DNA of 64,000 nucleotides from Tropicibacter sp. Alg240-R139 (GTDB lineage Bacteria > Pseudomonadota > Alphaproteobacteria > Rhodobacterales > Rhodobacteraceae), in NCBI RefSeq assembly GCF_900537075.1, contig NZ_UNRA01000001.1, forward strand, positions 806,001-870,000. The letters run 5' to 3'. The notes under the pieces are model-generated. The model was not told where the DNA came from and made no database searches. It saw only the letters and a list, made by a program, of their open reading frames with translations. Positions 4,661-21,922 of the stretch are shown here, one piece after another. The translations under genes and the position numbers were made by a program. The stretch's first letter is position 1. Each line of letters begins with the position of its first letter.

Positions 4661-4707
4661 TGTGCTCGCGCCGCCAATAGCCTGAAAGCGCGGAAGCGGG
4701 TGAATAG

Positions 4708-4741
4708 AAAACCCTCTTCCTGACCATCGTCTGGAAGAGGG
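4708..4741 (-). terminator. Rho-independent terminator after the second ureohydrolase
   Basis: On the minus strand, CCCTCTTCC and GGAAGAGGG (4712-4720 and 4733-4741) form a 9-bp stem with a 12-base loop, followed by a short T run (4708-4711). It lies 23 bases past the stop of the ureohydrolase gene. Confidence 0.75.
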
Positions 4742-4763
4742 CCCGATCGTGTTAGGCTTGCAG

Positions 4764-6005
4764 TCAGTCGCTGCGGGTGGCTCCAAGCATATCGGGATGG
4801 AAATAGAACGGATCGGTGATGCCCTTTTTGCGCAGGGCAATGGCAGTCAGTGATTCACGTATCATGTTAAGCGTGACGGCCCCAGTGGTGCGGGCATGGT
4901 CGTCCATGTAGGGGTTGTACTCGACAAAATCCATGCCGATAACGTCCGCAGAAACCGCCAACGCCTTAATAGTATCCATCAACTGGCGGGTGCTCCATCC
5001 TCCAATCACTGGTGCGGTAACACCACCAGCGACCGCAGGGTCCAGCACGTCGATATCAATCGAGATGTAGATCTTGCCCGGACCCTTTTTGACATCCTCG
5101 ATGACATCTTTCAGCACAGTTTTGAAACCACGGGTTTCAAATTCCGGCTGAAAGTAAATGCGAACCTTGTTTTCCCGGAACCAGTCCATTTTGTCCGGCC
5201 CGTACCCGGGCGAACGCTGTCCCAACTGAATCGAATCCGTCCCTTTGACGATGCCTTCTTCTACCGCGAGATACATCGAGTTGCCGATGGTGATGTAATG
5301 GCCGAAATTCTCTTTACTTGTATCGGTGTGTGCGTCGACATGAACAAGAGTGAAGCTTTCTGGTCCGTAGACGTCCTGCATTCCCAGAATGAGCGGATAA
5401 AGGATCGAGTGGTTGCCGCCGACACTGATCGGAATGGCTCCTGTTTCGGCAACCTCGCGGGCATAGCGGCGAATGTTTGGCAAACTGGCTTCAATTGAAT
5501 TCGGATCAACCGGCACGTCGCCGTAGTCAACGACCGTCATTTCAGTGAACGGGTTGGTCTGTAGTTCGGTCGTGATTGCGACCGGCCCTCCCGGCATGAT
5601 TGGTTCTGCGATGCGAAGCGTTTGCGGCCCCCATGACGTTCCAAGACGACCATAGCCGCCATTGTCCATCGGAACCCCCATGATGGCGACATCCACGTTG
5701 CCCGCCCTGAGATCTTCAGGTGTCAGCGCAACCGGCGATTTAAAAAATGTTGGTATACCCGCAAAGGATGGAGCGAACTCGGTACGCCTAAGATCAATCG
5801 GTCCCGCAGGACGATTGTCATTCGACATGTCGCGAGTGTTCATCATAGCCTTGCCGGTTTCATCATTCGGATTCAGGCGGATGATGCCATTTTCAGCATC
5901 GAAAGCCTTGTCGAAATTGGTCTCTTGCGCCGTCGCGGGCAACACTATCGCCGCGCATAGGCCAAGGGCCGTAAGGGTCGGCAGATGGCGGGTGTGTGTG
6001 GCCAT
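4764..6005 (-). CDS. Exported agmatinase-like ureohydrolase
   Basis: This is a second secreted member of the arginase/agmatinase family, 413 residues from the ATG at 6003-6005, which follows GGAGGACCC. Residues 1-26 are a signal peptide ending LPATAQ. The metal-binding set is complete: GGNHS with H199, DAHTD with D224, H226 and D228, and SIDIDVLDP with D317 and D319. The GGNHS form replaces the more common GGDHS. It shares its plan, including the IPTFFKSPVAL stretch after an N-terminal extension, with the ureohydrolase at 673-1944, so the two look like diverged paralogues. It is divergent from the AraC regulator at 6161 and ends in its own terminator. The DPAVAGG loop after the last metal motif is agmatinase-like. 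Substrate is not certain. Confidence 0.9.
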   Translation of the reverse strand: MATHTRHLPTLTALGLCAAIVLPATAQETNFDKAFDAENGIIRLNPNDETGKAMMNTRDMSNDNRPAGPIDLRRTEFAPSFAGIPTFFKSPVALTPEDLRAGNVDVAIMGVPMDNGGYGRLGTSWGPQTLRIAEPIMPGGPVAITTELQTNPFTEMTVVDYGDVPVDPNSIEASLPNIRRYAREVAETGAIPISVGGNHSILYPLILGMQDVYGPESFTLVHVDAHTDTSKENFGHYITIGNSMYLAVEEGIVKGTDSIQLGQRSPGYGPDKMDWFRENKVRIYFQPEFETRGFKTVLKDVIEDVKKGPGKIYISIDIDVLDPAVAGGVTAPVIGGWSTRQLMDTIKALAVSADVIGMDFVEYNPYMDDHARTTGAVTLNMIRESLTAIALRKKGITDPFYFHPDMLGATRSD

Positions 6006-6160
6006 TTTGGGTCCTCCAACAGGGTTTCGCCCTGAGCCGAGCACGAAAGTACGGCCTGGCAACACTAGGCAACTACGCAAATGTGGACTATGGCGAGCGT
6101 GGCCGCTATCCGATTACGGCACAGTCGGGTGAAATCTTTGCCTATGGGGGGTGCGTCCGA

Positions 6161-7123
6161 ATGACCGTAATAGCAGACCAGTATCTGTGGAGTTTCGACG
6201 GGATCGACCTAGTCCCGGCGGCTTTCCCGGAATGGGAGCTGGAGGCAATACAGCTTGACCCCGGACCTACGGTTTCGCGGGCAAATGCACTGTGCTTTCC
6301 TGACCTGACGGTCATGGCCTGCTATGAATCCCATCGCAGCATCAATCATTTGCACTTGCCTGCGGATTGGTCGCTCATCACTTTTCTGGCCAGCACGTCG
6401 CCCTCAGCGCGTGTGAATGGCGCGCTGGTGCCAAATGATCGGATTGTGGTGACGACCTCGACCCGGGACCATTCAGTGGTAATTCCAGCCGGATATGATG
6501 CCATCCAGATCGAAGCAGCCAACGCCCTGCTGTTGCGGCACGGAATTCTGTCACAGGCGCAAATGCTGTCTACAACGACCGACTTGGAATTACATGTACC
6601 GCTTGGGAAAGCAGGGCGTGCCTTTCGGCGCGAGCTTTTCGCCCTGGTGAGGTCACCAGATCATATCCATCAGATCAGTCGCCACCCAGTACGGGCCGCA
6701 GCGGTTCTTGATCGGGTGATCCGCGGCCTATCGGCGTCAGTGGGTGAAAGCGCCCTAACCACTCAAACTTTGACCCCGATGCGAAATCGTTACCGGATTG
6801 CCGAAGGCGCGCGACAGTTGATCGACACCGATCCTGGGGAAGCCCTGACGGCGACCAAAGTAGCTGAAACAATCGGCATCTCTGAACGGGAGCTGCGCTA
6901 TGCATTTGGGGAAGTATTCGAAACCAGTCCCTATCAGTATATCCAAAAGCGACGATTGCACGAAGCGCGCAAAGCCCTGCGTCAGGGCAGCGCAACCGAA
7001 ACAACGGTCACCGAGATCGCTTTCAGTAACGGATTTCTGAATTTTGGACGCTTTTCAGGGATTTATAGGCAGATGTTTGGCGAGCTTCCGTCACAAACAT
7101 TGTTAGATTCAATGGCCGACTAG
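6161..7123 (+). CDS. AraC-family transcriptional regulator
   Basis: A 320-residue regulator with an N-terminal effector-binding region and a C-terminal AraC double helix-turn-helix (about 215-318). The HTH region reads ALTATKVAETIGISERELR, then SPYQYIQKRRL, then the second helix pair ending in FSNGFLNFGRFSGIYRQMFG. The chosen ATG at 6161 follows a G-rich site (GGGGGG) at 8 bases; longer upstream readings lack support. It is divergent from the agmatinase-like gene with a 155-base shared promoter region, so it most likely senses the enzyme's substrate or product and activates that gene. Its partner at the left window edge has the same layout, giving two regulator-enzyme pairs in mirror image. 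Confidence 0.88.
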   Translation: MTVIADQYLWSFDGIDLVPAAFPEWELEAIQLDPGPTVSRANALCFPDLTVMACYESHRSINHLHLPADWSLITFLASTSPSARVNGALVPNDRIVVTTSTRDHSVVIPAGYDAIQIEAANALLLRHGILSQAQMLSTTTDLELHVPLGKAGRAFRRELFALVRSPDHIHQISRHPVRAAAVLDRVIRGLSASVGESALTTQTLTPMRNRYRIAEGARQLIDTDPGEALTATKVAETIGISERELRYAFGEVFETSPYQYIQKRRLHEARKALRQGSATETTVTEIAFSNGFLNFGRFSGIYRQMFGELPSQTLLDSMAD

Positions 7124-7269
7124 GGCGATTCAGCGTGAATTTCCTGCAAGATCAACCGGCTTCACGCCGGGTGCCACAAGCCGATAGGCAACATCCAGAT
7201 ATATGCCTGATTGCGACTAGGCTTCTGTGTCGGAAAGCTGAGCCATTCCAGAAACTCTCCCAACATTAC

Positions 7270-7325
7270 CCCCGTCTGGCCCCTCCCGGTGAGGTGATCC
7301 AGACGGGGTTTCCTTCTCCTATTTT
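7270..7325 (+). terminator. Rho-independent terminator
   Basis: CCCCGTCTGG (7270-7279) and CCAGACGGGG (7299-7308) form a perfect 10-bp stem, followed by a T-rich stretch ending in six Ts (to 7326). It lies 147 bases past the AraC gene and marks the edge of the accessory region. The stretch between the gene and the stem (7124-7269) shows no gene. Confidence 0.7.
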
Positions 7326-7326
7326 T

Positions 7327-7567
7327 TGCCCTCACCCATCCCGGCACAGACCTTTGCCACTAGGTTCTTCCTTGTAGTTCTCTCTGACCATTACCCTTAC
7401 CTATTCCCAGTAGGATCCTCCCCACAGGAACCACACCACCGCCCCCTCCAGAACCCATCCAGAGGTCCTCTCTATGGCCCCTACAGCCCCCCTCCCAGAG
7501 CACCTACCCCAAGGGTATCCAGACTCCCAAAAGGCCCCCAGGAATGCCCCACTTCGGCTCTCTGTCA
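7327..7567. other. C-rich, G-poor non-coding stretch
   Basis: This stretch has strong strand asymmetry. In 7381-7440 I count 26 C against 6 G, and in 7441-7500, 30 C against 10 G. It is full of short CCC and CTC runs. The open frames across it are proline-rich, lack ribosome binding sites and look like products of composition. No known gene or RNA is recognised. It sits directly before the tRNA-Gln fragment and the polymerase-like unit. Confidence 0.5.
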
Positions 7568-7619
7568 GGCTAAGGCGAAGAAAGGGATCATCGGGCTGGA
7601 ATTCCTACCACCCCAGCCA
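7568..7619 (+). pseudogene. Decayed tRNA-Gln remnant with intact 3' end
   Basis: Bases 7603-7619 read TCCTACCACCCCAGCCA, identical to the T-stem 3' side, acceptor stem and CCA of the tRNA-Gln at 12665-12739. The bases before it (TAAGGCGAAG, then GGATCATCGGGCTGGAAT) can be aligned with the D-arm end and T-arm of the same tRNA if the anticodon arm was lost. The 5' part is not recognisable. It is in opposite orientation to the live tRNA. The 3' end match is exact; the remainder is a weaker reading. Confidence 0.45.
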
Positions 7620-8092
7620 TCTTCTCTTACATCAAGTAAACAAGTGTTCAGGTCCTTCAATGGCCCTGGAAATGCCCCTGTTTACGCCCCAGCTATGGAT
7701 CTCCTACCAAAGGTCTCCCTCTTCATGGTTATCCCTCTCTCTTAATAGGTATAAGTAATGGATAAGAAGAAATAGAGAGAGAGAAGGGAAGAACCTGAGT
7801 AGGGAAACCCTGGTAGGGATACCCCGCCAGAACCCCCCTAAGCAGAGATCCCCAGTAAGAGGTCCTGAGCATGGTTAACCAGATTAAGAACCCTTGGCAT
7901 TCACGACCCATCGATGTGCACAGGTGGTCAGATCATCCCGAGGTTAGGGAACTGGTGGATAGGATCTGGGAGGGGTTCCTTGGGGGGACGATTGCTGAGA
8001 GAGGACCTGGCCCGAAGCCCAGGATGGGGTTTAGGAAGCAGTTGAGGGTGGTGATCCTGGACCTGTATGTGGCTTGGTTGGATGATCCGGAG
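7603..8092 (+). repeat. Long inverted repeat, copy 1 (tRNA end, leader, gene start)
   Basis: This segment matches the reverse complement of 12268-12681 at high identity. It spans the tRNA-Gln 3' end, the leader and the first ~74 codons of the polymerase-like gene. Copy 2 lacks 78 bases that correspond to 7982-8059. Differences in the leader are scattered substitutions and a longer C run in copy 2. Similarity ends sharply after codon 74. Because the arms are inverted, they could pair, recombine and flip the 4 kb between them. Confidence 0.85.
7620..7870 (+). other. Conserved leader between tRNA end and polymerase-like gene
   Basis: About 250 non-coding bases are kept in both copies of the unit. 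They show several potential hairpins: CCCTCTCTCT (7733-7742) against AGAGAGAGAGAAGGG near 7775-7790, AGGGAAACCCT, and GGTAGGGATACC, then a C run and a G-poor tail before the start codon. The sense strand turns from pyrimidine-rich to purine-rich in the middle. Possible roles are a structured 5' untranslated region, an untranslated RNA used by the encoded protein, or an origin. None can be chosen from sequence alone. Confidence 0.5.
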
Positions 8093-9391
8093 TTGAGTAT
8101 CGGCGTGTCTATGTCAGTGAACTCGTGGGACACTAACTCCCGATATAACGCGCTGCACATCTCCAAGAAGATCATTCCGATCATCAAGGAGCTGCATGAG
8201 AAGGGTCTGATCGATTTATCCAAGGGCAGTTATGGCAGCCCCGGTGCCAAGGGAAACCGAACCACCCGGATCAGGGCATCAGAGGAACTCCAAGGCTGGT
8301 TCGCCAAAGCCAAGTTCGAACGCGACGATATCGGGAGGGCTGAGGGTGAAGAGGTCATTGTCCTGAAGAACGATAGCAACAAGCAGATAGAGTACGAGGA
8401 TACGCCAGAAACACGCGGGTGGCGGGAGGACCTTCAGGCTTACAATGACCTGATTGCCAATTCCTTCATCGACATACCGTCTCTCCAAGAACCCACTCTG
8501 GAGATCAGTAAGGAACTCCCGCCCGGAGCCACTGGTGACATAGACGAATCCAGACGCATTCGCGTGGGTAATGCGAACAAAAGGACGCGGCGCATATTCA
8601 GCCGGGGCAGTTGGGACATGCATGGTCGGTTCTATGGCGGGTGGTGGCAACAGATCGACAGTGAGTGGCGGTCCAAGATCACGATCGACAATGAACCCGT
8701 TATCGAAGCTGACTTCGAGGGCATGCATGTGGCGATGCTCTATGCCGAGGAAGGGCTGGAATTGACTTACGATCCTTACACTCTGCCGGGATATAAAAAC
8801 AAAGGCTTTCCACAGAAGCTGGTCAGGAAGCTGGCCAAGTCTCTTGTGCTTACTGCTATCAACGCAAAGGAAAAAAAGGCAGCTTACAAAGCGTTCCGAG
8901 CCGGTTTCTCAGTAAATCACGTCGGCAAGCGAATGACCGATGAAAAGATGGATATCTTGCTAGAAGCTGTACTCGAAAGAAACCCATGCTTGGGCGACTA
9001 CCTTTTCTCAGATCAGGGTATTCGGTTGATGCAACAGGACAGCGAGATTACCTCCCTGATCCACAACCACTTCACCAAAACAGGCATACCCGTTCTGTCT
9101 GTCCATGACAGCTACATCGTAGATTGTCGGCATGTCGGAGAGCTCAGGCAAGTCATGCTGGATGCATCAGAAGAAGTGACCGGAAGGCCTCTTCGGATGT
9201 CCTACAACATCCCAGGTCGCGAAGAGTTCGAGGAGGTGGATGAGGCCTCTCTTCGGAAGCACGTTCACGACTTGCACTGGGCGGTCTACGAAAATGAGCA
9301 GAACGCCTGTAAAGGATATGTCCATCGGCTGCTGCAGTTCCAGAAGAGGACTGGCCGACGCATTAGCCCTTACGCGGAGAACCCAGTCTAA
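7871..9391 (+). CDS. Small single-subunit-polymerase-like protein (506 aa)
   Basis: The four signature motifs of T7-type single-subunit RNA polymerases and family A polymerases appear in order. DMHGRFY at 249-255 matches the DxxGR motif. ADFEGMHVAML at 280-290 is motif A with D281. RKLAKSLVLTAINA at 319-332 is motif B, with the exact RxxxKxxxxT spacing of T7 RNA polymerase but N-A where T7 has Y-G. SVHDSY at 410-415 is motif C with D413, in the HDS form of RNA polymerases rather than the HDE of DNA polymerases. Residues about 55-145 look like a winged-helix domain (HISKKIIPIIKELHEKGLI). It is far shorter than T7 RNA polymerase (883 residues). The ATG follows AGAGG at 9 bases. A dead second copy lies at 12259-12411. 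A primase-polymerase, transcriptase or replicase of a mobile unit are all possible; activity is inferred. Confidence 0.75.
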   Translation: MVNQIKNPWHSRPIDVHRWSDHPEVRELVDRIWEGFLGGTIAERGPGPKPRMGFRKQLRVVILDLYVAWLDDPELSIGVSMSVNSWDTNSRYNALHISKKIIPIIKELHEKGLIDLSKGSYGSPGAKGNRTTRIRASEELQGWFAKAKFERDDIGRAEGEEVIVLKNDSNKQIEYEDTPETRGWREDLQAYNDLIANSFIDIPSLQEPTLEISKELPPGATGDIDESRRIRVGNANKRTRRIFSRGSWDMHGRFYGGWWQQIDSEWRSKITIDNEPVIEADFEGMHVAMLYAEEGLELTYDPYTLPGYKNKGFPQKLVRKLAKSLVLTAINAKEKKAAYKAFRAGFSVNHVGKRMTDEKMDILLEAVLERNPCLGDYLFSDQGIRLMQQDSEITSLIHNHFTKTGIPVLSVHDSYIVDCRHVGELRQVMLDASEEVTGRPLRMSYNIPGREEFEEVDEASLRKHVHDLHWAVYENEQNACKGYVHRLLQFQKRTGRRISPYAENPV

Positions 9392-9541: not shown

Positions 9542-10981
9542 TCAGTTTTCTGGTGGCATATAGGGATCAGGCGTGCCAGGCGGGATTGGAGGGTACTTTT
9601 CAAACGAAGCGGCGTGCTCAAACATTTGCGGAATCGCTTTTTCAGCTACCCATGTGTACGGGAACAACACGTTTTCACGCTCGTGCGGATCGTTCAGCAG
9701 GTTGTAAATTTTCGGCGTGTCAAACGATTGGGTTTCGTCAAAGATTGTCGCGTTTTCCTTGAACATCACCTTCCAGTCCTGCCATTTCACCCCAAATATT
9801 TGATCGCCCATATAGACGATTATGCCATCGCGGTTCGAACTTGGTTGATTGCCAAGAAAGAACTCTGATTGGTTGATGCCGTCAAAAGCACGGTCGGTTG
9901 GCACGGTACCTCCGGCAAAGGCGGCCAGTGTCGGGAATAGATCCATAGAATGCACTACATCGTTGCTAGCAGAGCCCGCCGGAATCTTGCCGGGCCATTT
10001 AATCGCAAATGGAACGCGCATGCTACCCTCGAGGCTGGTAAACAAAGTTCCCCGCCAAGGACCTGCTGTGCCTTGTACCATTGGGGTAGGAGACACGTTC
10101 GCGTTGCCAACCGGTGCCGCCTCAGGACCATTGTCGGCAGTGAATATTACAACCGTGTTATCAGCTATGCCCGCATCCACCAAAGCCTGATTGACGCGCC
10201 CAACATATGTATCGACTTGCAACAATATATCTGCCCAAACGCCGTTTCCAGTCGCGCCAGAAAATTCTGGGTGCGCTATATTGGGATAGTGTGTCTGCGT
10301 ATAGGCCAGATATATGAAAAACGGTGAATCTTCGCCGCTCTTGCGGTTGATGTAGTCGATGGCCTTTTCGGTCAGATCACCATCGATGAGCCCTCGGTAC
10401 TCGAGGTCATAATCACGGGCGACAGTCGCAGCTTCCTCTGCAACTCCCTGCATCACGACAGGCGCTTCCATTTTGGCGTCCGCGAAGCCGTTAAGAGATC
10501 TCCAAACCGTGACGTCCGTGGTCTCAACCCCATAAAATTCATCAAACCCCTGATTGGTGGGGTAACGCCCCTCCGACCAGCCAAGGTGCCATTTTCCGAG
10601 CATGGAAGTGCTATACCCTGCCTGCTTGAACATCTCGGCCATTGTGATTTCCCATTGGGTAAGACCATAGACACCTCCACCCAAAGGAACCGTATGGTTC
10701 CCGCTCCGAACACCATAACGCCCGGTCATCGTCGCGGCACGAGAAGGGGTGCACTGACTTTCGACGTTGAAGTTGGTCAGTCGCAGGCCCTCTGCCGCCA
10801 ATGCGTCCATTTCTGGCGTAGGTGTCCCACGAATGATGCCACCACCGTTAAACCCTGGCTCTCCCCATCCGAAATTATCTAGGAAAATGAAAACAACGTT
10901 AGGTTTGGATTCCGCATACGCAGCTGATGTCGCTGTAAAAACTGATGCTGCCGCTAGGGTCGCTAATAATAAATATTTCAT
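9542..10981 (-). CDS. Exported arylsulfatase (formylglycine sulfatase family)
   Basis: A 479-residue type I sulfatase hydrolysing sulfate esters, probably in the periplasm (signal peptide 1-23, ending SAAYA). The activation motif CTPSR starts at C77, the cysteine converted to formylglycine. Other landmarks are FLDNFGWG at 33-40, where the usual Asp-Asp metal pair reads Asp-Asn, GKWHLG, and the TADNG calcium site. The ATG at 10979-10981 is chosen because AGGGAGGG lies just before it; a GTG 21 bases upstream is in frame but poorly placed. It follows an outer-membrane protein gene on the same strand by 55 bases, suggesting an operon for uptake and desulfation of an environmental compound. It lies between the two inverted copies of the polymerase-like unit and may be cargo. 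Confidence 0.9.
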   Translation of the reverse strand: MKYLLLATLAAASVFTATSAAYAESKPNVVFIFLDNFGWGEPGFNGGGIIRGTPTPEMDALAAEGLRLTNFNVESQCTPSRAATMTGRYGVRSGNHTVPLGGGVYGLTQWEITMAEMFKQAGYSTSMLGKWHLGWSEGRYPTNQGFDEFYGVETTDVTVWRSLNGFADAKMEAPVVMQGVAEEAATVARDYDLEYRGLIDGDLTEKAIDYINRKSGEDSPFFIYLAYTQTHYPNIAHPEFSGATGNGVWADILLQVDTYVGRVNQALVDAGIADNTVVIFTADNGPEAAPVGNANVSPTPMVQGTAGPWRGTLFTSLEGSMRVPFAIKWPGKIPAGSASNDVVHSMDLFPTLAAFAGGTVPTDRAFDGINQSEFFLGNQPSSNRDGIIVYMGDQIFGVKWQDWKVMFKENATIFDETQSFDTPKIYNLLNDPHERENVLFPYTWVAEKAIPQMFEHAASFEKYPPIPPGTPDPYMPPEN

Positions 10982-11036
10982 TTTCCCTCCCTTTCGGGAC
11001 ACAAAGCCAATCTAGCTCTGGGCCCATTTTCCCAAA

Positions 11037-11981
11037 TTAAAACTGAATACTGAATGATAACGCTCCATAGTCGCCTGACAGCCGGTTCTTTGAATGAACA
11101 TCGTGAACCCAGCTTGCAGAAAAAGCGATGCTACCTCCTGCTGATTTTGGTATCCAAGAGATTGCTGGCCCAATACCAAGTGCTTCGCCTTTGAAGTCTC
11201 CCAACAAAGCTCCCGACCCTGAATCTCCAGTCAACTGTTTGTAGGCATAGCCGTGAATGCCAAGAGCCAAATCTTCGGACACGAATTGATTGAACATGAA
11301 GTCCATGTGAAATTCTGTGCCTGTTCGATAGTTCGTGTCCGGGTTTTCCGTGTTGAACATGAACCCCGGCACAACGGAAAACTCGGTGCCGGAATCCGGG
11401 TTGAACCACGTCATCGCCGCAACAAGATCCAAGCTCCAGTAATTGCGACCGATATTGACGAGGTTTCCGGTGTCGTACTCACCAGTAGGAGCAATGATCA
11501 GCCCGTAAATGTTGGAATGGAAGTTGCCTGATGACCAGTAGAACGAAGCTGGGATAATCCCCATGTCGCCAAAAGCAAACTCGTCTTGAGATCGGCTGGA
11601 ACCACCGACGGATGAACTGTAAGACGCATATCCCAAGGGTAAATACCCTCCAACAGCAAACCGACCGCCAAGAGCCGGGGCGTCCCATACATGCAAGCCC
11701 TGAAAGAGAGCGTAGAAGGCCTTGCTTTGCATCGAGGCATGAATTTTACCTTCGCTGACCGCGCGATTGGTCTTACCGCTGTAGAGCAGATTGACGTTGG
11801 CAAAGACATAACCCAGTTCAGGCGCCATTCCGGGCAGAAGGCTCCCATAGGCACCGGGGAAATAGTTGGAAAACGCGCCTTCTCCTGCGTCAACCGGTGT
11901 ATGCGAATGAACTGCCATCAACGACAGGCCCAACAGGACACTGAGCTTGCGAAGCTTAGTTAAGAAGCTTGTCTGTTTCAC
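11037..11981 (-). CDS. Outer-membrane transport protein, phenol-degradation (MetA/SphA) type
   Basis: A 314-residue predicted beta-barrel with a signal peptide (about 1-32) and a C-terminal strand ending SFSIQF, an outer-membrane sorting signal. Alternating aromatic strands with the stretches YGLIIAPTGEYD, NIGRNYWSLD and GIGPAISW fit the family found beside aromatic-degradation genes and thought to carry hydrophobic compounds across the outer membrane. It precedes the sulfatase on the same strand, 55 bases away, and probably leads that operon. The 277 bases upstream should hold its promoter, but no clear boxes are visible. The substrate is unknown. Confidence 0.78.
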   Translation of the reverse strand: MKQTSFLTKLRKLSVLLGLSLMAVHSHTPVDAGEGAFSNYFPGAYGSLLPGMAPELGYVFANVNLLYSGKTNRAVSEGKIHASMQSKAFYALFQGLHVWDAPALGGRFAVGGYLPLGYASYSSSVGGSSRSQDEFAFGDMGIIPASFYWSSGNFHSNIYGLIIAPTGEYDTGNLVNIGRNYWSLDLVAAMTWFNPDSGTEFSVVPGFMFNTENPDTNYRTGTEFHMDFMFNQFVSEDLALGIHGYAYKQLTGDSGSGALLGDFKGEALGIGPAISWIPKSAGGSIAFSASWVHDVHSKNRLSGDYGALSFSIQF

Positions 11982-12258: not shown

Positions 12259-12411
12259 TCAAGTCGTCTCCGGATCATCCAACCAAGCCGCGTACAGGTC
12301 AAGGAACCCCTCCCAGATCCTATCCACCAGTTCCCTAACCTCGGGATGATTTGACCACCTGTGCACATCGATGGGTCGTGAATGCCAAGGGTTCTTAATC
12401 TGGTTAACCAT
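12259..12411 (-). pseudogene. Truncated second copy of the polymerase-like gene
   Basis: From the ATG at 12409-12411 the frame encodes 50 residues that repeat the start of the 506-residue protein with one change (S20 followed by N instead of D) up to WEGFL. It then jumps in frame by 26 codons to DLYAAWLDDPE and ends after two unrelated codons. The jump corresponds to loss of 7982-8059 of the full copy, where short TTCCTTGG-like and ATCCTGG-like sequences flank the gap. All catalytic motifs are absent. It lies downstream of the live tRNA-Gln on the same strand, separated by a leader of 253 bases, exactly as in the full unit. Confidence 0.8.
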
Positions 12412-12681
12412 GCTCAGGACCTCTTACCGGGGATCTCTGCTTAGGGGGGGGGGCTGGCGGGGTATCCCTACCAGGGTTTCCCTACTCAGGTTCTTCCCTT
12501 CTCTCTCTCTATTTCTTCTTATCCATTACTTATACCTATTAAGAGAGAGGGATAACCATGAAGAGGGAGACCTTTGGTAGGAGATCTATAGCTGGGGCAT
12601 AAATAGGGGCATTTCCAGGGCCATTGAAGGACCTAGCTGCTTGTTTACTTGATGTAAGAGAAGATGGCTGGGGTGGTAGGA
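12268..12681 (-). repeat. Long inverted repeat, copy 2 (attached to live tRNA-Gln)
   Basis: This is the reverse-complement partner of 7603-8092. It starts inside the tRNA-Gln gene (its last 17 bases), continues through the leader at 12412-12664, and ends in the broken gene copy. The leader has a C run of ten bases where copy 1 has six. The bases between 11982 and 12258 show no gene apart from the upstream region of the outer-membrane protein. Confidence 0.85.
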
Positions 12682-12739
12682 TTCGAACCTACGATCTTCA
12701 GTACCAAAAACTGTTGCCTTACCACTTGGCCACACCCCA
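12665..12739 (-). tRNA. tRNA-Gln (TTG anticodon)
   Basis: The minus strand folds as a complete cloverleaf. The acceptor stem is TGGGGTG/CACCCCA, with discriminator G and an encoded CCA. The D-arm is GCC...GGC, the anticodon loop TTTTGGT (TTG anticodon), and the T-arm GTAGG-TTCGAAT-CCTAC. The anticodon stem ACAGT/ACTGA has an A-A mismatch at its first pair (27-43). The last 17 bases are repeated in inverted orientation at 7603-7619, and the polymerase-like unit is fused directly downstream. Confidence 0.95.
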
Positions 12740-13913: not shown

Positions 13914-14822
13914 ATGAAGGCATTGCGCACGCCCGACGAACGCTTCGAAGGGCTCCCGGATTACCCGTTTGAACCGAACTATCTGGAGGTTGATGACACC
14001 GAAGGTAGCAGCCTGAGAGTGCATTATCTGGACGAGGGGCCTGTAGGTGCGAATCCGGTGTTGACCATGCACGGCGAACCCAGTTGGTCCTACCTCTATC
14101 GGCACATGATCCCTGTGTTCGTCGATGCCGGGCACCGGGTCATTGCGCCTGATCTGGTGGGCTTTGGTCGCTCGGACAAGCCCGATCAGCGGTCTGACTA
14201 CACCTACGAACGGCATGTGACCTGGATGGGGTCGGTTGTTCGTCAATTGGATTTGCGGAACATTACCTTGGTCTGTCAGGACTGGGGCGGGCTGATCGGA
14301 CTGCGTCTGTGGGCGGATATGCCCGAACGGTTTGCCCGCATTGTTGTGGCCAACACGGCTTTGCCCACAGGTGATCAGCCGATGGGAGAAGCGTTTAAGG
14401 CTTGGCGCACATTCAGCCAGGAGGTGCCGGAATTTCCTGCCGGTCGCATCGTCTATGGTGGCACGACCAGCAAGCTGACGGATGAAGAAGTTGCGGCCTA
14501 TGACGCGCCTTACCCAGATGAAACTTATAAAGAAGGCGCGCGGCAGTTCCCGGTCCTGGTGCCGGACAGCCCCGACAACCCCTCATCTCAGGCGAACCGC
14601 GAGGCTTGGGGCGTGTTGCGGGGACTGAATACGCCGGTGCTGACTGCCTTTGGCGCTGACGACAAGATCATGGAAGGGGTGGACAGAGTATTCCAAGAGC
14701 TGTGTCCCGGCGCGGCGGGACAGCCGCATACGATTTTGCCTGAGGCGGGTCATTTCCTGCAAGAGGATGTCGGGCCAGAGCTGGCGCGGCTAACAAATGA
14801 GTTCATTGCCCGAACGTCGTGA
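13914..14822 (+). CDS. Haloalkane dehalogenase (HLD-I type)
   Basis: A 302-residue alpha/beta-hydrolase that removes halide from haloalkanes by a covalent aspartyl ester. Visible are HGEPSWSYLYR at 53-63 (oxyanion region), QDWGG with nucleophile D123 followed by halide-binding W124, a second candidate halide tryptophan W164 (FKAWRTF), an acid in FGADDK at about 249, and H280 in EAGHFLQED. Spacing matches the DhlA-like subfamily. The ATG is preceded by AGGAGG at ideal spacing. Enzymes of this sequence type are common in marine bacteria and some act as epoxide hydrolases, but the tryptophan after the nucleophile favours a dehalogenase. Natural substrate unknown. Confidence 0.88.
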   Translation: MKALRTPDERFEGLPDYPFEPNYLEVDDTEGSSLRVHYLDEGPVGANPVLTMHGEPSWSYLYRHMIPVFVDAGHRVIAPDLVGFGRSDKPDQRSDYTYERHVTWMGSVVRQLDLRNITLVCQDWGGLIGLRLWADMPERFARIVVANTALPTGDQPMGEAFKAWRTFSQEVPEFPAGRIVYGGTTSKLTDEEVAAYDAPYPDETYKEGARQFPVLVPDSPDNPSSQANREAWGVLRGLNTPVLTAFGADDKIMEGVDRVFQELCPGAAGQPHTILPEAGHFLQEDVGPELARLTNEFIARTS

Positions 14823-14843
14823 TTGGCTTTGCGGGGCTATGTT

Positions 14844-15365
14844 TTAGTCCCGCAACTCCGCAGGCGCGACGCCCCAGAGGCTTTCCTTGCTGACCCAACC
14901 TCTATAACCACCTGCCGAAATGCGGCACCAATCTGCCGAGCAGCTGCCAAGCCGGGCCACGACACCTAGTTCGAAATGTGCAGCAACCGGGGCGTTGTCA
15001 TCTGCGCGTGCATGCACCGGCACCATGTCCCGTTCAATCAGGACGGTGCGGGCGCCAGACAACAGCGCATAGTGAACCCAGCCACCGGCTCCATCGCGGT
15101 CCTGCACTTTGCGCCAATGGCCATGCTCGGCGGTGATTTGCAGCGGCATGTCGCGGCGCTTGAACACCCAATCAATGCGATGGGTCAGGGATGGCCCGCG
15201 CCGCACGTTGCCCTCGTTGGCTTTCATCGAGACATAGCGCGGTAGGGGAAGATTGGTCACCGGGCCGCGCTTATCCTGCGCCAAGGCTGCTGTCGCCGCA
15301 AAAGCGATTGAAATGCCGGAAAGTGCCGCCAAAACGCGGCGATAGATCGAACTCGAATGTTTCAC
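14844..15365 (-). CDS. Exported SH3-domain protein
   Basis: A 173-residue protein with a signal peptide (about 1-29, ending AALAQ) and two bacterial SH3-like repeats. The first reads MKANEGNVRRGPSLTHRIDWVF and leads to WVHYALLSG; the second runs from VHARADDNAPVAA to WVSKESLWG. Such proteins sit in the periplasm and are thought to bind cell-wall peptides. Two cysteines in the motif CSADWC may form a disulfide. It is divergent from the 2-hydroxyacid dehydrogenase at 15513. Its exact role is unknown. Confidence 0.85.
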   Translation of the reverse strand: MKHSSSIYRRVLAALSGISIAFAATAALAQDKRGPVTNLPLPRYVSMKANEGNVRRGPSLTHRIDWVFKRRDMPLQITAEHGHWRKVQDRDGAGGWVHYALLSGARTVLIERDMVPVHARADDNAPVAAHFELGVVARLGSCSADWCRISAGGYRGWVSKESLWGVAPAELRD

Positions 15366-15512
15366 TGCCTGCCTGCCCGAATACTAGCCTGAATGCTCGA
15401 CTGCTTTGTCAAAAAAGGCTGCGTCATTTGCGCATGGGGTTCTTGTGCCCCGCCTGTTCCTGCGCCACGATGACATGGCGCGGAGCTGTTTGAAAAGCCT
15501 GGGAGAGCGGAA

Positions 15513-16499
15513 GTGTCAAGAGAACGTCTGAGTGTTGTTGTTACGCGACGGTTGCCCGAAGCGGTTGAAACCCGGCTCAGCGAGTTGTTCGATGTGCGCT
15601 TGCGCGACGACGACACGCCTATGACGAGATCCCAATTGGTCGAGGCGGTGCAGGATGCCGATGTTCTGGTGCCCACGGTGACCGACACGATCGACGCGGG
15701 TTTGATCGGGCAAGCCGGAGAGCGGTTGAAGCTGATCGCGAATTATGGCGCTGGTGTCGATCACATCGATGTCGAAACTGCCCGCCGCCGGGGTGTGCTG
15801 ATATCGAACACGCCCGGTGTTCTGACCGATGATACCGCCGACATGACATTGGCCTTGATTCTATCAGTCACCCGCCGCCTGCCCGAGGGCATGGGGACCA
15901 TGCAAAAAGGCGATTGGGATGGTTGGGCACCAACGGCATTTCTGGGGGGGCGTCTTGGAGGCCGCCGCCTTGGGATATTGGGCATGGGCCGCATTGGGCA
16001 AGCCGTAGCCCGGCGCGCGGCGGCGTTTGGAATGCAGGTCCACTATCATAACCGCCGCCGTTTGCGCCCCGAAATTGAACGCGAGCTAGAGGCGACCTAT
16101 TGGGAAAGCCTGGATCAAATGGTGGCGCGGATGGACATCCTGTCGATCCACTGCCCTTCGACCCCCAGCACATTTCATCTGATGAACGCGCGTCGTCTTA
16201 AGCTGGTGAAACCGACCGGTGTTATCGTAAACACCTCGCGCGGCGAAGTGATTGACGAAAATGCGCTCACGCGTATGGTCCGTAACGGTGAAATCGCAGG
16301 CGCGGGTCTGGACGTTTACGAGCACGGCACAGATGTGAACCCACGACTGCGCGAACTGCCCAACGTGGTGCTCCTGCCGCACATGGGTTCGGCCACCATC
16401 GAGGGGCGGATCGAGATGGGCGAAAAGGTCATCATCAACATCAAGACCTTCGAAGACGGCCACCGCCCGCCGGATCAGGTCGTACCTGCGATGCTGTGA
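15513..16499 (+). CDS. D-2-hydroxyacid dehydrogenase (glyoxylate reductase-like)
   Basis: A 328-residue NAD(P)-dependent dehydrogenase of D-2-hydroxy acids. The nucleotide motif GMGRIG lies at 157-162, and HNRRR after the second strand suggests preference for NADP. Catalytic residues are R243 (NTSRGEV), E270 (GLDVYE) and H290 (LLPHMGSAT). The start is GTG at 15513 after GGGAGAGCGG. Typical roles are glyoxylate or hydroxypyruvate reduction, but specificity cannot be fixed. It runs to within 2 bases of the convergent M23 peptidase gene, with no visible terminator between them. Confidence 0.85.
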   Translation: MSRERLSVVVTRRLPEAVETRLSELFDVRLRDDDTPMTRSQLVEAVQDADVLVPTVTDTIDAGLIGQAGERLKLIANYGAGVDHIDVETARRRGVLISNTPGVLTDDTADMTLALILSVTRRLPEGMGTMQKGDWDGWAPTAFLGGRLGGRRLGILGMGRIGQAVARRAAAFGMQVHYHNRRRLRPEIERELEATYWESLDQMVARMDILSIHCPSTPSTFHLMNARRLKLVKPTGVIVNTSRGEVIDENALTRMVRNGEIAGAGLDVYEHGTDVNPRLRELPNVVLLPHMGSATIEGRIEMGEKVIINIKTFEDGHRPPDQVVPAML

Positions 16500-19151: not shown

Positions 19152-20555
19152 ATGGTCCAAGCGACAGCATTGCCACGCAATGAAACCGGGATCGAAACGG
19201 TTGTTGGCATTCTGAAACAGCAATTCGGAGACCGGCTGCAAACCGGGGCGTCGGTGCGCGAACAACATGGCCACACCACCACCTGGATCGAAAACCAGTC
19301 ACCTGACGCCGTGGTCTTTCCGCAGTCCACCGAAGAAGTAGCAGAGATCGTCAAGACCTGCGCACTGCACAAGGTGCCGGTCATCCCGTTCGGCACCGGC
19401 ACTTCGCTTGAAGGGCATGTGAATGCGCCCGCAGGCGGGATCTCGGTCGATGTGAGCCAGATGAACAAGATTTTGACCGTCAACAGTAGCGATCTTGATT
19501 GCGTTGTGCAGCCGGGGGTGACCCGTGAGGATCTGAACACCAACTTGCGTGATCAGGGGCTGTTCTTTCCCATTGATCCCGGCGCCAACGCCTCGCTTGG
19601 TGGTATGACAGCGACGCGCGCTTCGGGCACCAACGCGGTGCGCTACGGCACCATGAAGGACAACGTTGTTGCAGTAGAAGCGGTCATGCCGGACGGGCAG
19701 GTGATCCGCACCGCGCAGCGGGCCAAGAAATCGTCTGCGGGGTATGACCTGACCCGCCTGTTGGTGGGGTCCGAGGGAACGCTGGGCCTGATCACCGAGA
19801 TTACATTGCGCCTGCAAGGTATCCCCGAGGCGATAAGCTCCGCACGGTGTTCTTTTCCGTCGGTCGACGCCGCCTGCCAGGCAGTGATGATGACCATTCA
19901 GTACGGCATTCCGGTGGCCCGGATAGAGCTGTTGGATGCCCTGTCGGTCAAGGCGGCGAATGACTATTCAAAGCTGACCCTGCCTGAAACGCCGCTCTTG
20001 CTATTGGAGTTTCACGGGTCCGAGGCGGGCGTGGTCGAACAGGCAGAAACCTTTGGACAGATCGCCGAAGAGTTCGGTGGCAACGATTTTGCGTCGACCA
20101 CTTCGACTGAAGAACGCAGCAAGCTGTGGCAGGCACGGCACGACATGTATTGGGCCTCTCTTGGGTTGCGCCCCGGCGCCAGCGGGATTTCAACGGACGT
20201 CTGCGTGCCAATCTCTCGTTTGGCCGAATGCGTGACAAGCGCACAGGAAAAGGCCGCCGATCTGGGATTGGTGGCCCCGACCGTGGGCCACGTGGGCGAC
20301 GGAAACTTTCACACGTTGCTGCTGATCGATATGAAAAACGCCGACGAGGTCACCAAGGCCGAAGAGTTCGTGAGCTGGCTGAACGACATGGCTATCTCGA
20401 TGGATGGCACCTGCACCGGCGAGCATGGAATCGGTCAGGGCAAGCGTCCCTATCTGGTCAAGGAACTTGGGGTCGCGACCACCTATATGCGCGCGATCAA
20501 AACGGCGCTGGACCCCGACAACATCATGAACCCGGGGAAAATCCTGCCCGACTAA
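19152..20555 (+). CDS. FAD-linked D-lactate dehydrogenase-type oxidase
   Basis: A 467-residue FAD enzyme of the GlcD/Dld family. The FAD domain (about 40-175) shows PFGTGTSLEGHV and PGANASLGGMTATRASG. The C-terminal domain holds the substrate-side metal motif VGHVGDGNFH and the signature TGEHGIGQGK. Such enzymes oxidise D-lactate or related D-2-hydroxy acids and pass electrons to cytochrome c or quinone. There is no signal peptide. ATG 19152 follows GAGGGAG. No iron-sulfur partner gene is adjacent, which argues for the single-subunit cytochrome-type enzyme and not for glycolate oxidase. Confidence 0.87.
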   Translation: MVQATALPRNETGIETVVGILKQQFGDRLQTGASVREQHGHTTTWIENQSPDAVVFPQSTEEVAEIVKTCALHKVPVIPFGTGTSLEGHVNAPAGGISVDVSQMNKILTVNSSDLDCVVQPGVTREDLNTNLRDQGLFFPIDPGANASLGGMTATRASGTNAVRYGTMKDNVVAVEAVMPDGQVIRTAQRAKKSSAGYDLTRLLVGSEGTLGLITEITLRLQGIPEAISSARCSFPSVDAACQAVMMTIQYGIPVARIELLDALSVKAANDYSKLTLPETPLLLLEFHGSEAGVVEQAETFGQIAEEFGGNDFASTTSTEERSKLWQARHDMYWASLGLRPGASGISTDVCVPISRLAECVTSAQEKAADLGLVAPTVGHVGDGNFHTLLLIDMKNADEVTKAEEFVSWLNDMAISMDGTCTGEHGIGQGKRPYLVKELGVATTYMRAIKTALDPDNIMNPGKILPD

Positions 20556-20650
20556 GGCAAATGTCACATTTTCACCCGGTTTTGCCAAAGCCATGTCAAA
20601 ATTCTCGCGCAGGTTGATCCCATCTGATCACCTTGTGCGAGTATTTTTTG

Positions 20651-21922
20651 ATGAGCATTGCGAACACCGTTGGGTTTGTTGCTGTGTGTGGCGCGGTTGC
20701 GATTGGCGTTGACGTCTTTACGCAATCCAAGAAAGCCGAAGGCGCATTTGGGGCCTCCGCGTATCTTCATACTTTGAATGACCGATATGCGGCCTTGTTG
20801 GACGACCGATATGCGGCCAAAGCGGAATCCGATCGGCAGGATCGTTGGGCCGCTGGTGGTCAGGGCTTCATGCCGACCGCGCCAGAGGCGTGGACGAGCT
20901 ACAGCTTCGCCCAGTACGAAGAAGCTCCTGTCATAAAGGCGTTGAGCTTCAAGCCCACGCCGGTGGCCAATACGCTTTCTACAGCGGACGTCTACACCGC
21001 AGAGCGCAGCGGTAACGCCGCAAAGGCGCGTATCTTGGACCGCACCGGGCGTGTCTACAGTGGCGCTGGGCCAAACGGAATCGAAACTCTGTGGTTCGAC
21101 ATCACCTTCAAACCCAAGGCGCAACGAAACACCATGGCAGGCCTTGCGATGGGCAACATGATGGCCTTTTCCAAAGGTATGGAGCAGACCGAAGGTTACG
21201 CCGTTTTCGATGGGGTCGGCTTTGTCGAAGTTTCTCGCAGCATGTTGGACCCAACAGACGAGCCGCTGGAATACCGAAACCTTGTCGGGCGCATCGGGTT
21301 TGACGAAGAAGTGGTGATCCGACTGCGCACCGATGCCAGCGATGAAACGATCCGTCGGTTCTTGGGCAGTTTGGACTATGCGGCCTTGAATGCCGTCTTG
21401 GCACATCCCGTCGCCGCTGTCGGGGCGGGATATGTTGTCGGGTCTGACAAACAGATCGTGCGGGCCGAGCAAATGGACGACCTGTACCGCAAGGCGTCGA
21501 ACATGCAGACCAAGATCTCGATGGAGAAGATCGAGAATATGGATATGGGGGCCTTGATGGTGAACACCTTTGCGTCGGGCTTTAACACAGACGGGGTTGT
21601 CGACATCACGGGTGGTGCTGTGTTTGAAAACCAGGATCTGTTGCAGATTGGGTATGGCAATGCCGTCTCAAGCCTATTTGAGTTGGACCGGCGCAGGGCC
21701 GAAGGTGCACCATCGGCCAAGGAACCTGATACCCGTCAGGCGGCAGTTGAACCGGTAAAAGACAAACCAGGGATGCTATCAGGCCTGATGGACAGCTTGC
21801 AGTCCACGGGGGGAACGCAGGTCGAAAAGCCGGTTGAGGTGCGCGTCAACAAGGGTGGATTCAGCGGATCAAACTGCGTCATGCAGGGCGCAGTCAAACG
21901 CTGTAAAATCGTACAGAACTGA
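20651..21922 (+). CDS. Uncharacterised membrane-anchored protein (423 aa)
   Basis: I do not recognise this family. Residues about 4-23 form one hydrophobic segment (NTVGFVAVCGAVAIGV), so it is probably anchored in the inner membrane with the rest outside. The body is mixed charge without obvious catalytic motifs. The last 25 residues carry two cysteines (SNCVMQ and KRCKIVQN) that could form a disulfide. The ATG at 20651 is chosen over a TTG 18 bases upstream; neither has a strong ribosome binding site. A terminator follows, so it is probably a single-gene unit. Confidence 0.75.
   Translation: MSIANTVGFVAVCGAVAIGVDVFTQSKKAEGAFGASAYLHTLNDRYAALLDDRYAAKAESDRQDRWAAGGQGFMPTAPEAWTSYSFAQYEEAPVIKALSFKPTPVANTLSTADVYTAERSGNAAKARILDRTGRVYSGAGPNGIETLWFDITFKPKAQRNTMAGLAMGNMMAFSKGMEQTEGYAVFDGVGFVEVSRSMLDPTDEPLEYRNLVGRIGFDEEVVIRLRTDASDETIRRFLGSLDYAALNAVLAHPVAAVGAGYVVGSDKQIVRAEQMDDLYRKASNMQTKISMEKIENMDMGALMVNTFASGFNTDGVVDITGGAVFENQDLLQIGYGNAVSSLFELDRRRAEGAPSAKEPDTRQAAVEPVKDKPGMLSGLMDSLQSTGGTQVEKPVEVRVNKGGFSGSNCVMQGAVKRCKIVQN

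Follow-up and report, generated by a model that had tools for sequence, protein, structure and literature searches.

A predicted TV-Pol-type polymerase in tRNA-linked integrative islands, some of which carry a second, inverted attachment site in a layout like that of the yeast 2-micron plasmid

We describe here a polymerase gene, POL, and the integrative islands that carry its relatives. The gene lies in a 64,000-nucleotide stretch of the Tropicibacter sp. Alg240-R139 genome (contig NZ_UNRA01000001.1, positions 806,001 to 870,000), which we refer to as the window and number from its first letter. POL is very probably a replicase of the TV-Pol type residing in integrase-bearing islands; as a primase-polymerase it would replicate small elements that a tyrosine integrase inserts at tRNA 3′ ends. 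The tRNA-Gln clade is one of the lineages in which the element appears to carry a second, inverted attachment site (attP). In 11 of 57 islands two inverted recombinase sites separate two modules, as in the yeast 2-micron plasmid. We consider it somewhat probable that TV-Pol islands with 2-micron-like inverted attP sites explain these observations as a whole.

The islands were defined from loci that encode relatives of POL. In a first set of 82 loci (81 plus the window) we observed 41 in which POL is flanked by a tRNA gene and, 5.8–14 kb away, by a direct repeat of that gene's 3′ end. A tyrosine integrase cluster is present in 36 of these 41 islands and another integrase-like open reading frame (ORF) in 3 more, and 15 contain a resolvase-like cluster that was named by eye. 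Pooling of 165 loci, many without a tRNA or far repeat and some redundant, yielded 56 unique islands, which became 57 with the addition of L237, a complete element of Pseudohalocynthiibacter aestuariivivens BS-W9. An integrase-profile match was obtained in 55/56 unique islands, and 55/56 span 5.8–14 kb, the remaining one being 2.4 kb long. Three integrases that we scanned contain DUF6538 and Phage_integrase domains. The relatives thus have the features of integrative elements, with attL and attR sites as direct repeats at a tRNA 3′ end and a tyrosine integrase inside. A control search with the integrase family matched 8 of 149 genomes. Of the nine regions fetched for this control, the seven that came from matches outside G039 all lacked a tRNA in our search, which makes the control uninformative. 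One genome (G518) contains three copies or fragments of the integrase family, and no tRNA was found in the two regions fetched from it (L240 and L241).

The 11 islands with two inverted sites each contain an additional core, an exact or near-exact copy of the tRNA end in inverted orientation, 1.3–7.3 kb from the tRNA. This core continues inward into the tRNA-side P′ arm and outward into an attR-type P arm, and the site is therefore an entire attP turned around. Comparison of its P arm with that of attR gave a match in 9 of 10 islands (z 28–101), and in L237 the two P arms match over 153 nt at 100%. The integrated order is tRNA-core-P′, module 1, P′-core-P (the inverted attP), module 2 and P-core-chromosome, from which it follows that POL and the integrase gene (INT) would be separated on an excised circle by two attP sites in inverted orientation. 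POL lies between the tRNA and the inverted attP in the tRNA-Gln islands with INT beyond, and the reverse arrangement, with INT on the tRNA side and POL beyond, is seen in L044, L134, L186, L195 and L208. Inverted cores for which no attR was located are present in six more loci (the window, L032, L151, L186, L195 and L208).

The first reading that we gave to the inverted repeats was a different one. They start 17 nt from the tRNA 3′ end, so that both strands of the window unit would terminate in a sequence complementary to that 3′ end. This suggested a retroelement-like mode of replication in which the tRNA 3′ end pairs with the ends of a linear form and serves POL as a primer. We dropped this reading upon finding that the homology extends into the P arm found at attR. 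Homology that continues through the core into an attR-type P arm indicates an attachment site and not a terminus, and the same 17-nt boundary is observed in many direct repeats of integrase islands. We now consider tRNA-primed replication extremely improbable.

The inverted attP is concentrated in islands at tRNA-Gln, where it occurs in 9 of 15, compared with 2 of 42 at other tRNAs (L044 and L134; Fisher p = 2.4e-5). A general link between POL and inverted tRNA ends was dropped as a candidate, given that 40/42 non-Gln islands lack them. On a FastTree phylogeny of 128 POL proteins (16 with the inverted attP, 41 without and 71 unlabelled; L030 and L085 were omitted as partial) the distribution of the site needs 5 changes, against a mean of 14.0 for shuffled labels, with none of 500 shuffles as low. 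The carriers sit in at least three separate parts of this tree. On the same tree L111 and L112, like L092 and L093, are near relatives that lack an inverted attP and yet differ in the orientation of POL. No description of an inverted attP in TV-Pol islands was recognized in the open-licence PMC literature, as judged mostly by title and the start of the abstract.

Signs that the second site is functional were sought in its arms. In 11/11 elements the P′ arms of both attL and the inverted attP contain the hexamer TGCCCC at +54 and/or +66 (within 1 nt), and shuffling gives a chance rate of 0.002 for the attL P′ positions. In the P arm of the inverted attP it is found at −58 and/or −70 in 9 of 11 elements, the other two (L087 and L097) lacking it in both P arms. 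L032, which has two inverted cores and stands outside the eleven, carries TGCCCC in all three P′ arms. The P′ arms within an element are 0.81–1.00 identical (≥0.96 in 7 of 11), and the best P′ arm match in another element reaches 0.79–0.89, often over fewer columns.

The orientation of the two genes relative to the tRNA, written as (POL,INT), differs among tRNA-Gln islands that have both genes and an inverted attP: L086 is (−,+), L087, L097 and L145 are (−,−), L088, L094, L159 and L237 are (+,−), and L162 is (+,+). This is contrasted by five tRNA-Gln islands without the site (L050, L084, L085, L154 and L165), which are always (−,−). Orientations other than (−,−) thus occur in 6/9 tRNA-Gln islands with an inverted attP and in 0/5 without it (one-sided Fisher p = 0.028, phylogeny ignored). 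One close pair that differs by an inversion is Ruegeria arenilitoris L211 (strain HKCCA4777, a complete element) and R. denitrificans L167, in which module 1 is 89% and module 2 is 88% identical and module 1 is inverted relative to module 2, with the switch at the attP. The L167 element has no recognizable tRNA at its site, where its end reads ...CAAGCACAGCCAGTTC (L167:11400-11744); this site is perhaps a secondary target.

Such inversions could alternatively constitute a switch, in which the integrase flips the tRNA-side module and thereby toggles read-through into POL or INT from the tRNA promoter or from module 2. The occupation of the tRNA-side segment by either POL (Gln clade) or INT (L044, L134, L186, L195 and L208) and the occurrence of both POL orientations are in line with a switch. 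In L088, however, ~300 nt of unique sequence separates the arm from POL and would move along with the gene, so the promoter of POL need not change upon inversion, and module 2 is also found in both orientations. We consider a switch unlikely.

Several observations weigh against a working second attP and against the scheme that we build on it. The two P arms of L159 are unmatched by the local test (z = 1.5), no attR was found in L186, L195 and L208, and 40 of the 42 non-Gln islands have no inverted attP. Among 12 further tRNA-Gln loci without a found inverted core, five (L030, L033, L037, L096 and L125) share the +54/+66 offsets and seven (L050, L084, L085, L154, L160, L165 and L173) do not have TGCCCC at these offsets; the presence of the motif geometry in those five indicates that it belongs to the clade and not to the second attP itself, and shared descent contributes to its conservation. 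Orientation can likewise change without a second attP, since the 40 non-Gln islands lacking one are a mixture of 18 (−,+), 13 (+,+), 5 (+,−) and 4 (−,−), and the tRNA-Ala islands L092 and L093 differ in orientation without it. The proposal that mixed orientation exists only where there is a second attP is therefore ruled out beyond tRNA-Gln. Additionally, host recombination between the arms could be the source of the inversions, the window has neither an attR nor a cognate integrase in searches of the window and its own genome, and excision, replication and amplification of the element are steps that we infer.

A simpler alternative is that the inverted attP arose as a by-product of aberrant integration or arm duplication, that host gene conversion keeps the arms similar, and that the site has no role, POL and the integrase acting as in any integrative element. 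Consistent with a by-product, 46 of the 57 islands do without the site, gene orientation varies in such islands too, the arms of 4 of the 11 elements have drifted to 0.81–0.92, and the window copy is degenerate. Opposed to it are the occurrence of the site in no fewer than three parts of the POL tree, with far fewer changes than for shuffled labels, the arm motifs at fixed offsets in both copies, and the location of the L211/L167 inversion at the attP. Weighing these, we regard a by-product as rather unlikely and a real working site as fairly probable. The variation of orientation in islands without an inverted attP has lowered our estimate both for a working site and for amplification.

We propose the following scheme for how a working site might act. 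It starts from what is directly visible in the islands, namely the architecture, the arm motifs in both sites, the differing orientations and the one pair inverted at the attP. The integrase, or recombination between the arms, may invert the modules; the element would excise as a circle, which POL would prime or copy. An inversion that takes place after one attP has been replicated could then turn the forks into a double rolling circle and amplify the element. In the yeast 2-micron plasmid, double rolling-circle replication is set off by recombination that follows closely on the replication of a site (PMC3147054). By analogy, double rolling-circle amplification of the bacterial element is a tentative proposal, which we consider rather unlikely. 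Equally tentative is the notion of a bacterial class of integrative elements with the 2-micron layout, in which a POL module and an INT module are separated by two inverted attP sites and the integration site, by flipping a module behind a replication fork, also triggers amplification. If true, one site would serve both purposes, and there would be an explanation for modules that are flipped between near relatives.

The assignment of POL rests on its motifs and their conservation. Translation and alignment placed the four palm motifs of this 506-residue protein where the initial annotation had put them: DMHGR at 249–253, D281 in motif A, RKLAKSLVLTAINA at 319–332, and HDS at 412–414. In terms of residue roles, R253 is the hairpin arginine, D281 belongs to motif A, R319xxxK323 to the fingers and D413 to motif C; D301 is taken to be the fingers aspartate. 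Conservation was determined in a 16-row alignment, comprising the window protein and 15 other, diverse members with 17–79% identity to it, and in a 65-row alignment (A3), most rows of which came from a scan with the pattern FYG[GP]WWQ and a stretch near residue 30. G252, D281, R319 and D413 are invariant in 16/16 and 65/65 members; D281 and D413 are the residues on whose conservation the initial annotation had staked its reading, and neither varies. R253, E279, D301, K323 and H412 are ≥90% conserved in the 16-row alignment. E279 and K323, among others, become invariant in A3, and R253, whose hairpin location is predicted, and D301 remain ≥90% conserved in both alignments. The Y-G of motif B is replaced by N331-A332, as had been noticed, and N331 is invariant in 65/65 rows of A3. 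Invariance at 254–259 is partly a matter of selection by the scan patterns, which leaves the catalytic positions unaffected. Pairwise dN/dS of the window POL is 0.218 in the comparison with G002, whose POL gene has an in-frame stop, and 0.064–0.131 in comparisons with three relatives that are more distant; these ratios reflect the history of both lineages and are not proof of present function.

Motifs and genomic context lead us to classify POL as a TV-Pol, a family described by Iyer, Abhiman and Aravind in 2008 as proteins of 400–600 residues (PMC2579912). TV-Pols conserve a hairpin arginine, two palm aspartates, a fingers aspartate and RxxxK, with a fold consisting of a two-helix thumb, a palm like an RNA recognition motif and helix-turn-helix fingers, to which a subset adds an N-terminal domain. 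Their genes neighbor a lambda-type integrase, gamma-delta resolvase or transposase, and the species include the Rhodobacterales Loktanella, Paracoccus, Roseovarius and Sulfitobacter (PMC2579912). The window family agrees in length, hairpin arginine, both palm aspartates, predicted fingers aspartate and RxxxK, and the integrase/resolvase context is present in the islands of its relatives, not in the window copy. The initial statement that no described family has this architecture was thus wrong, since the 2008 description already gives these conserved residues and lists members from Rhodobacterales.

Direct sequence kinship with published TV-Pols was examined through phage Ma-LMM01, which is named as a carrier (PMC2579912). 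Its gp030, encoded beside a transposase gene, came first among 298 ORFs with our profile A1 (HMMER E = 0.034) and first among the 60 ORFs given to hhalign (score 37.6, E = 4e-4; next 23.8); gp030 is presumably the published member. Less favorable to the assignment, gp030 obtained only E = 0.55 with the profile "full" and was unlisted with A3 at E ≤ 5, making this a weak link and leaving the TV-Pol call with weak direct sequence support beside its motifs and context. HHalign comparisons with T7 RNA polymerase, SP6 RNA polymerase, E. coli DNA polymerase I and T7 gp5 were not significant (probability ≤1% for the T7 and SP6 RNA polymerases), and the reversed controls scored not far below. A search of the PDB with profile A1 returned two chance matches only (E 0.15–0.16). 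The label "T7-like" given at first therefore holds at the level of motifs and fails in these profile comparisons and at the motif B tyrosine. The accompanying view of a reduced, probably active polymerase agrees with the family-wide conservation of catalytic residues and with the mobile, tRNA-linked context, activity itself being predicted.

A T7-like RNA polymerase that transcribes its own unit could account for the HDS motif and for the weak matches at motif C, where the sole Pfam match is RNA_pol (PF00940, E = 0.57, over HDS) and two PHROG RNA polymerase families match at E = 0.11 and 0.15. An NCBIfam scan of POL gave no match, and PHROG 4756, a family of unknown function, is matched at 1.9e-49. 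In motif B, however, the tyrosine is replaced by an asparagine that is invariant in A3, and only ~240 residues precede the GR motif in POL compared with ~420 in T7 RNA polymerase, leaving little room for the promoter-binding parts of the latter. The studied TV-Pol member CCPol, moreover, uses dNTPs much better than NTPs (PMC7581432). We consider a transcriptase very unlikely.

Relatives of POL are widespread. A tblastn search recovered them from 157 phage records (130 of Vibrio, 13 of Aeromonas and 14 others), where identity stayed below 60% throughout, from 5 plasmid records, from 17 of 101 genomes and from 70 of 390 genomes of the order, the own genome being included in both counts. In the genome collection 179 stretches matched; the 80 best were retained and gave 79 loci. 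A scan of viral contigs with a single sequence recovered no relatives, and the same scan with A2 recovered four distant loci. Among the matches listed, the phage relatives belong to large Vibrio and Aeromonas phages of 91–146 kb, are called hypothetical protein wherever they are annotated and often occupy two places per genome. The assignment links the orphan polymerase phrog_4756 to a published family and supplies a genetic context for testing what it does.

The window copy is a remnant that retains attL, the inverted attP and, with its cargo, the POL module, in which the POL frame is open (Table 1). This follows from three observations: the P arm with core is found once in the own genome, the remaining match being the tRNA end; the window holds two cores; and the integrase family has no match in the own genome (G000) at E ≤ 1e-40. 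The earlier description of the unit as tRNA-linked was borne out, as the 17-nt core occurs in two places only in the window when up to 2 mismatches are allowed, with 0.00 expected in 100 shuffles. Because the inverted repeat runs through the POL leader into the first codons, a truncated POL start stands beside the tRNA. Relatives with homologous flanks occupy the same tRNA locus with different cargo: G002 (L030) has a dCTP-deaminase-type defence protein and a DUF2971/PDC-S31 protein (ORFs at 6957–8255 and 5390–6361), and Falsiruegeria mediterranea has other cargo genes.

Table 1. Features of the POL unit in the window.
Feature	Position	Strand	Remarks
POL, predicted TV-Pol-type polymerase	7871..9391	+	506 aa, ATG start; motifs from translation and alignment
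tRNA-Gln(ttg), intact, integration target	12665..12739	−	only tRNA gene of the window
attL core, last 17 nt of tRNA-Gln	12665-12681	−	part of the tRNA gene
attP core, identical to the 17 nt at the tRNA-Gln 3′ end, in opposite orientation to the tRNA gene	7603..7619	+	
P arm of inverted attP	7402..7602	+	outer limit approximate; G002 and G003 have homologous P arms at the distal end
TGCCCC in P arm of inverted attP	7545-7550 (−58)	+	
P′ arm of inverted attP, equal to POL leader	7620..7870	+	from repeat and motif comparison
TGCCCC in P′ arm of inverted attP	7673-7678 (+54)	+	further copy with one mismatch at 7685 (+66)
Long inverted-repeat arm (core, P′ arm, first POL codons)	7603..7982	+	pairs with 12300-12681, 96% over 382 nt
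Further inverted pair	8046-8092 / 12268-12314		87% over 47 nt
attL P′ arm	12413..12664	−	TGCCCC starts at 12611 (+54) and 12599 (+66), − strand
Truncated second POL 5′ end	12268..12411	−	codons 1-37, then fragment to ~codon 74 after internal deletion
Sulfatase, POL-module cargo	9542..11002	−	PF00884, 2.2e-52
PF13557 (Phenol_MetA_deg) protein, POL-module cargo	11037..11981	−	domain match

Other islands show further genes and repeats. An uncultured Rhodobacteraceae locus (L150:13340-17025) carries, between its inverted arms, CBASS-type cargo with E1-E2, cyclase and a short ORF resembling an HNH/SAVED effector. The tRNA-Cys islands L091, L108 and L109 share ORFs of 874 and 642 aa, the first of which resembles a helicase or restriction subunit by eye. 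L044 (from G048) contains two POL genes, which adjoin 1171-bp direct repeats of 99.7% identity (4736–5906 and 14587–15757). In L186, besides the inverted core near the integrase, a 1.3-kb inverted repeat of 81% identity surrounds the POL region (4697–6001 and 19959–21260).

Among known systems, T7 RNA polymerase and DNA polymerase I (L227 and L230 in our comparison set) share the order of motifs with POL, and the former also shares HDS at motif C. Both differ from POL, which has a shorter N-terminus, no motif B tyrosine and no significant profile match to them. Pipolins are mobile elements with their own polymerase, many of them integrative, and are comparable in this respect; their polymerase is of family B, and we know of no inverted second attP in pipolins. 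Closer to POL is CCPol of an SCCmec element, a family A polymerase of a mobile element that is counted as a TV-Pol (PMC7581432, PMC10061031). Together with its partner MP, CCPol makes DNA primers de novo, and in 2020 it was to its authors' knowledge the only biochemically characterized TV-Pol (PMC7581432). The suggestion in the initial annotation that POL might make primers is plausible by this analogy. The operon of CCPol includes the partner and a helicase (PMC7581432); here a partner was sought only among ORF clusters. Compared with TV-Pols at large, the present islands differ by their tRNA targets, inverted second attachment site and modules that may be invertible, which do not appear in the main text of the 2008 description (PMC2579912).

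The layout of the islands is best compared with that of a eukaryotic plasmid; the comparison concerns layout only, and we claim no homology. Like the islands, the yeast 2-micron plasmid is partitioned by a pair of inverted repeats, both of which contain a site for a tyrosine recombinase, and it exists as isomers (PMC3147054). That plasmid is free and its repeats are 599 bp long (PMC3147054). The present system, in contrast, is a bacterial integrative element that encodes a polymerase. The 2-micron plasmid is not known to have one of its own. If the second attP works as we propose, some bacterial integrative elements would come with an amplification step of their own, comparable to that of this yeast plasmid.

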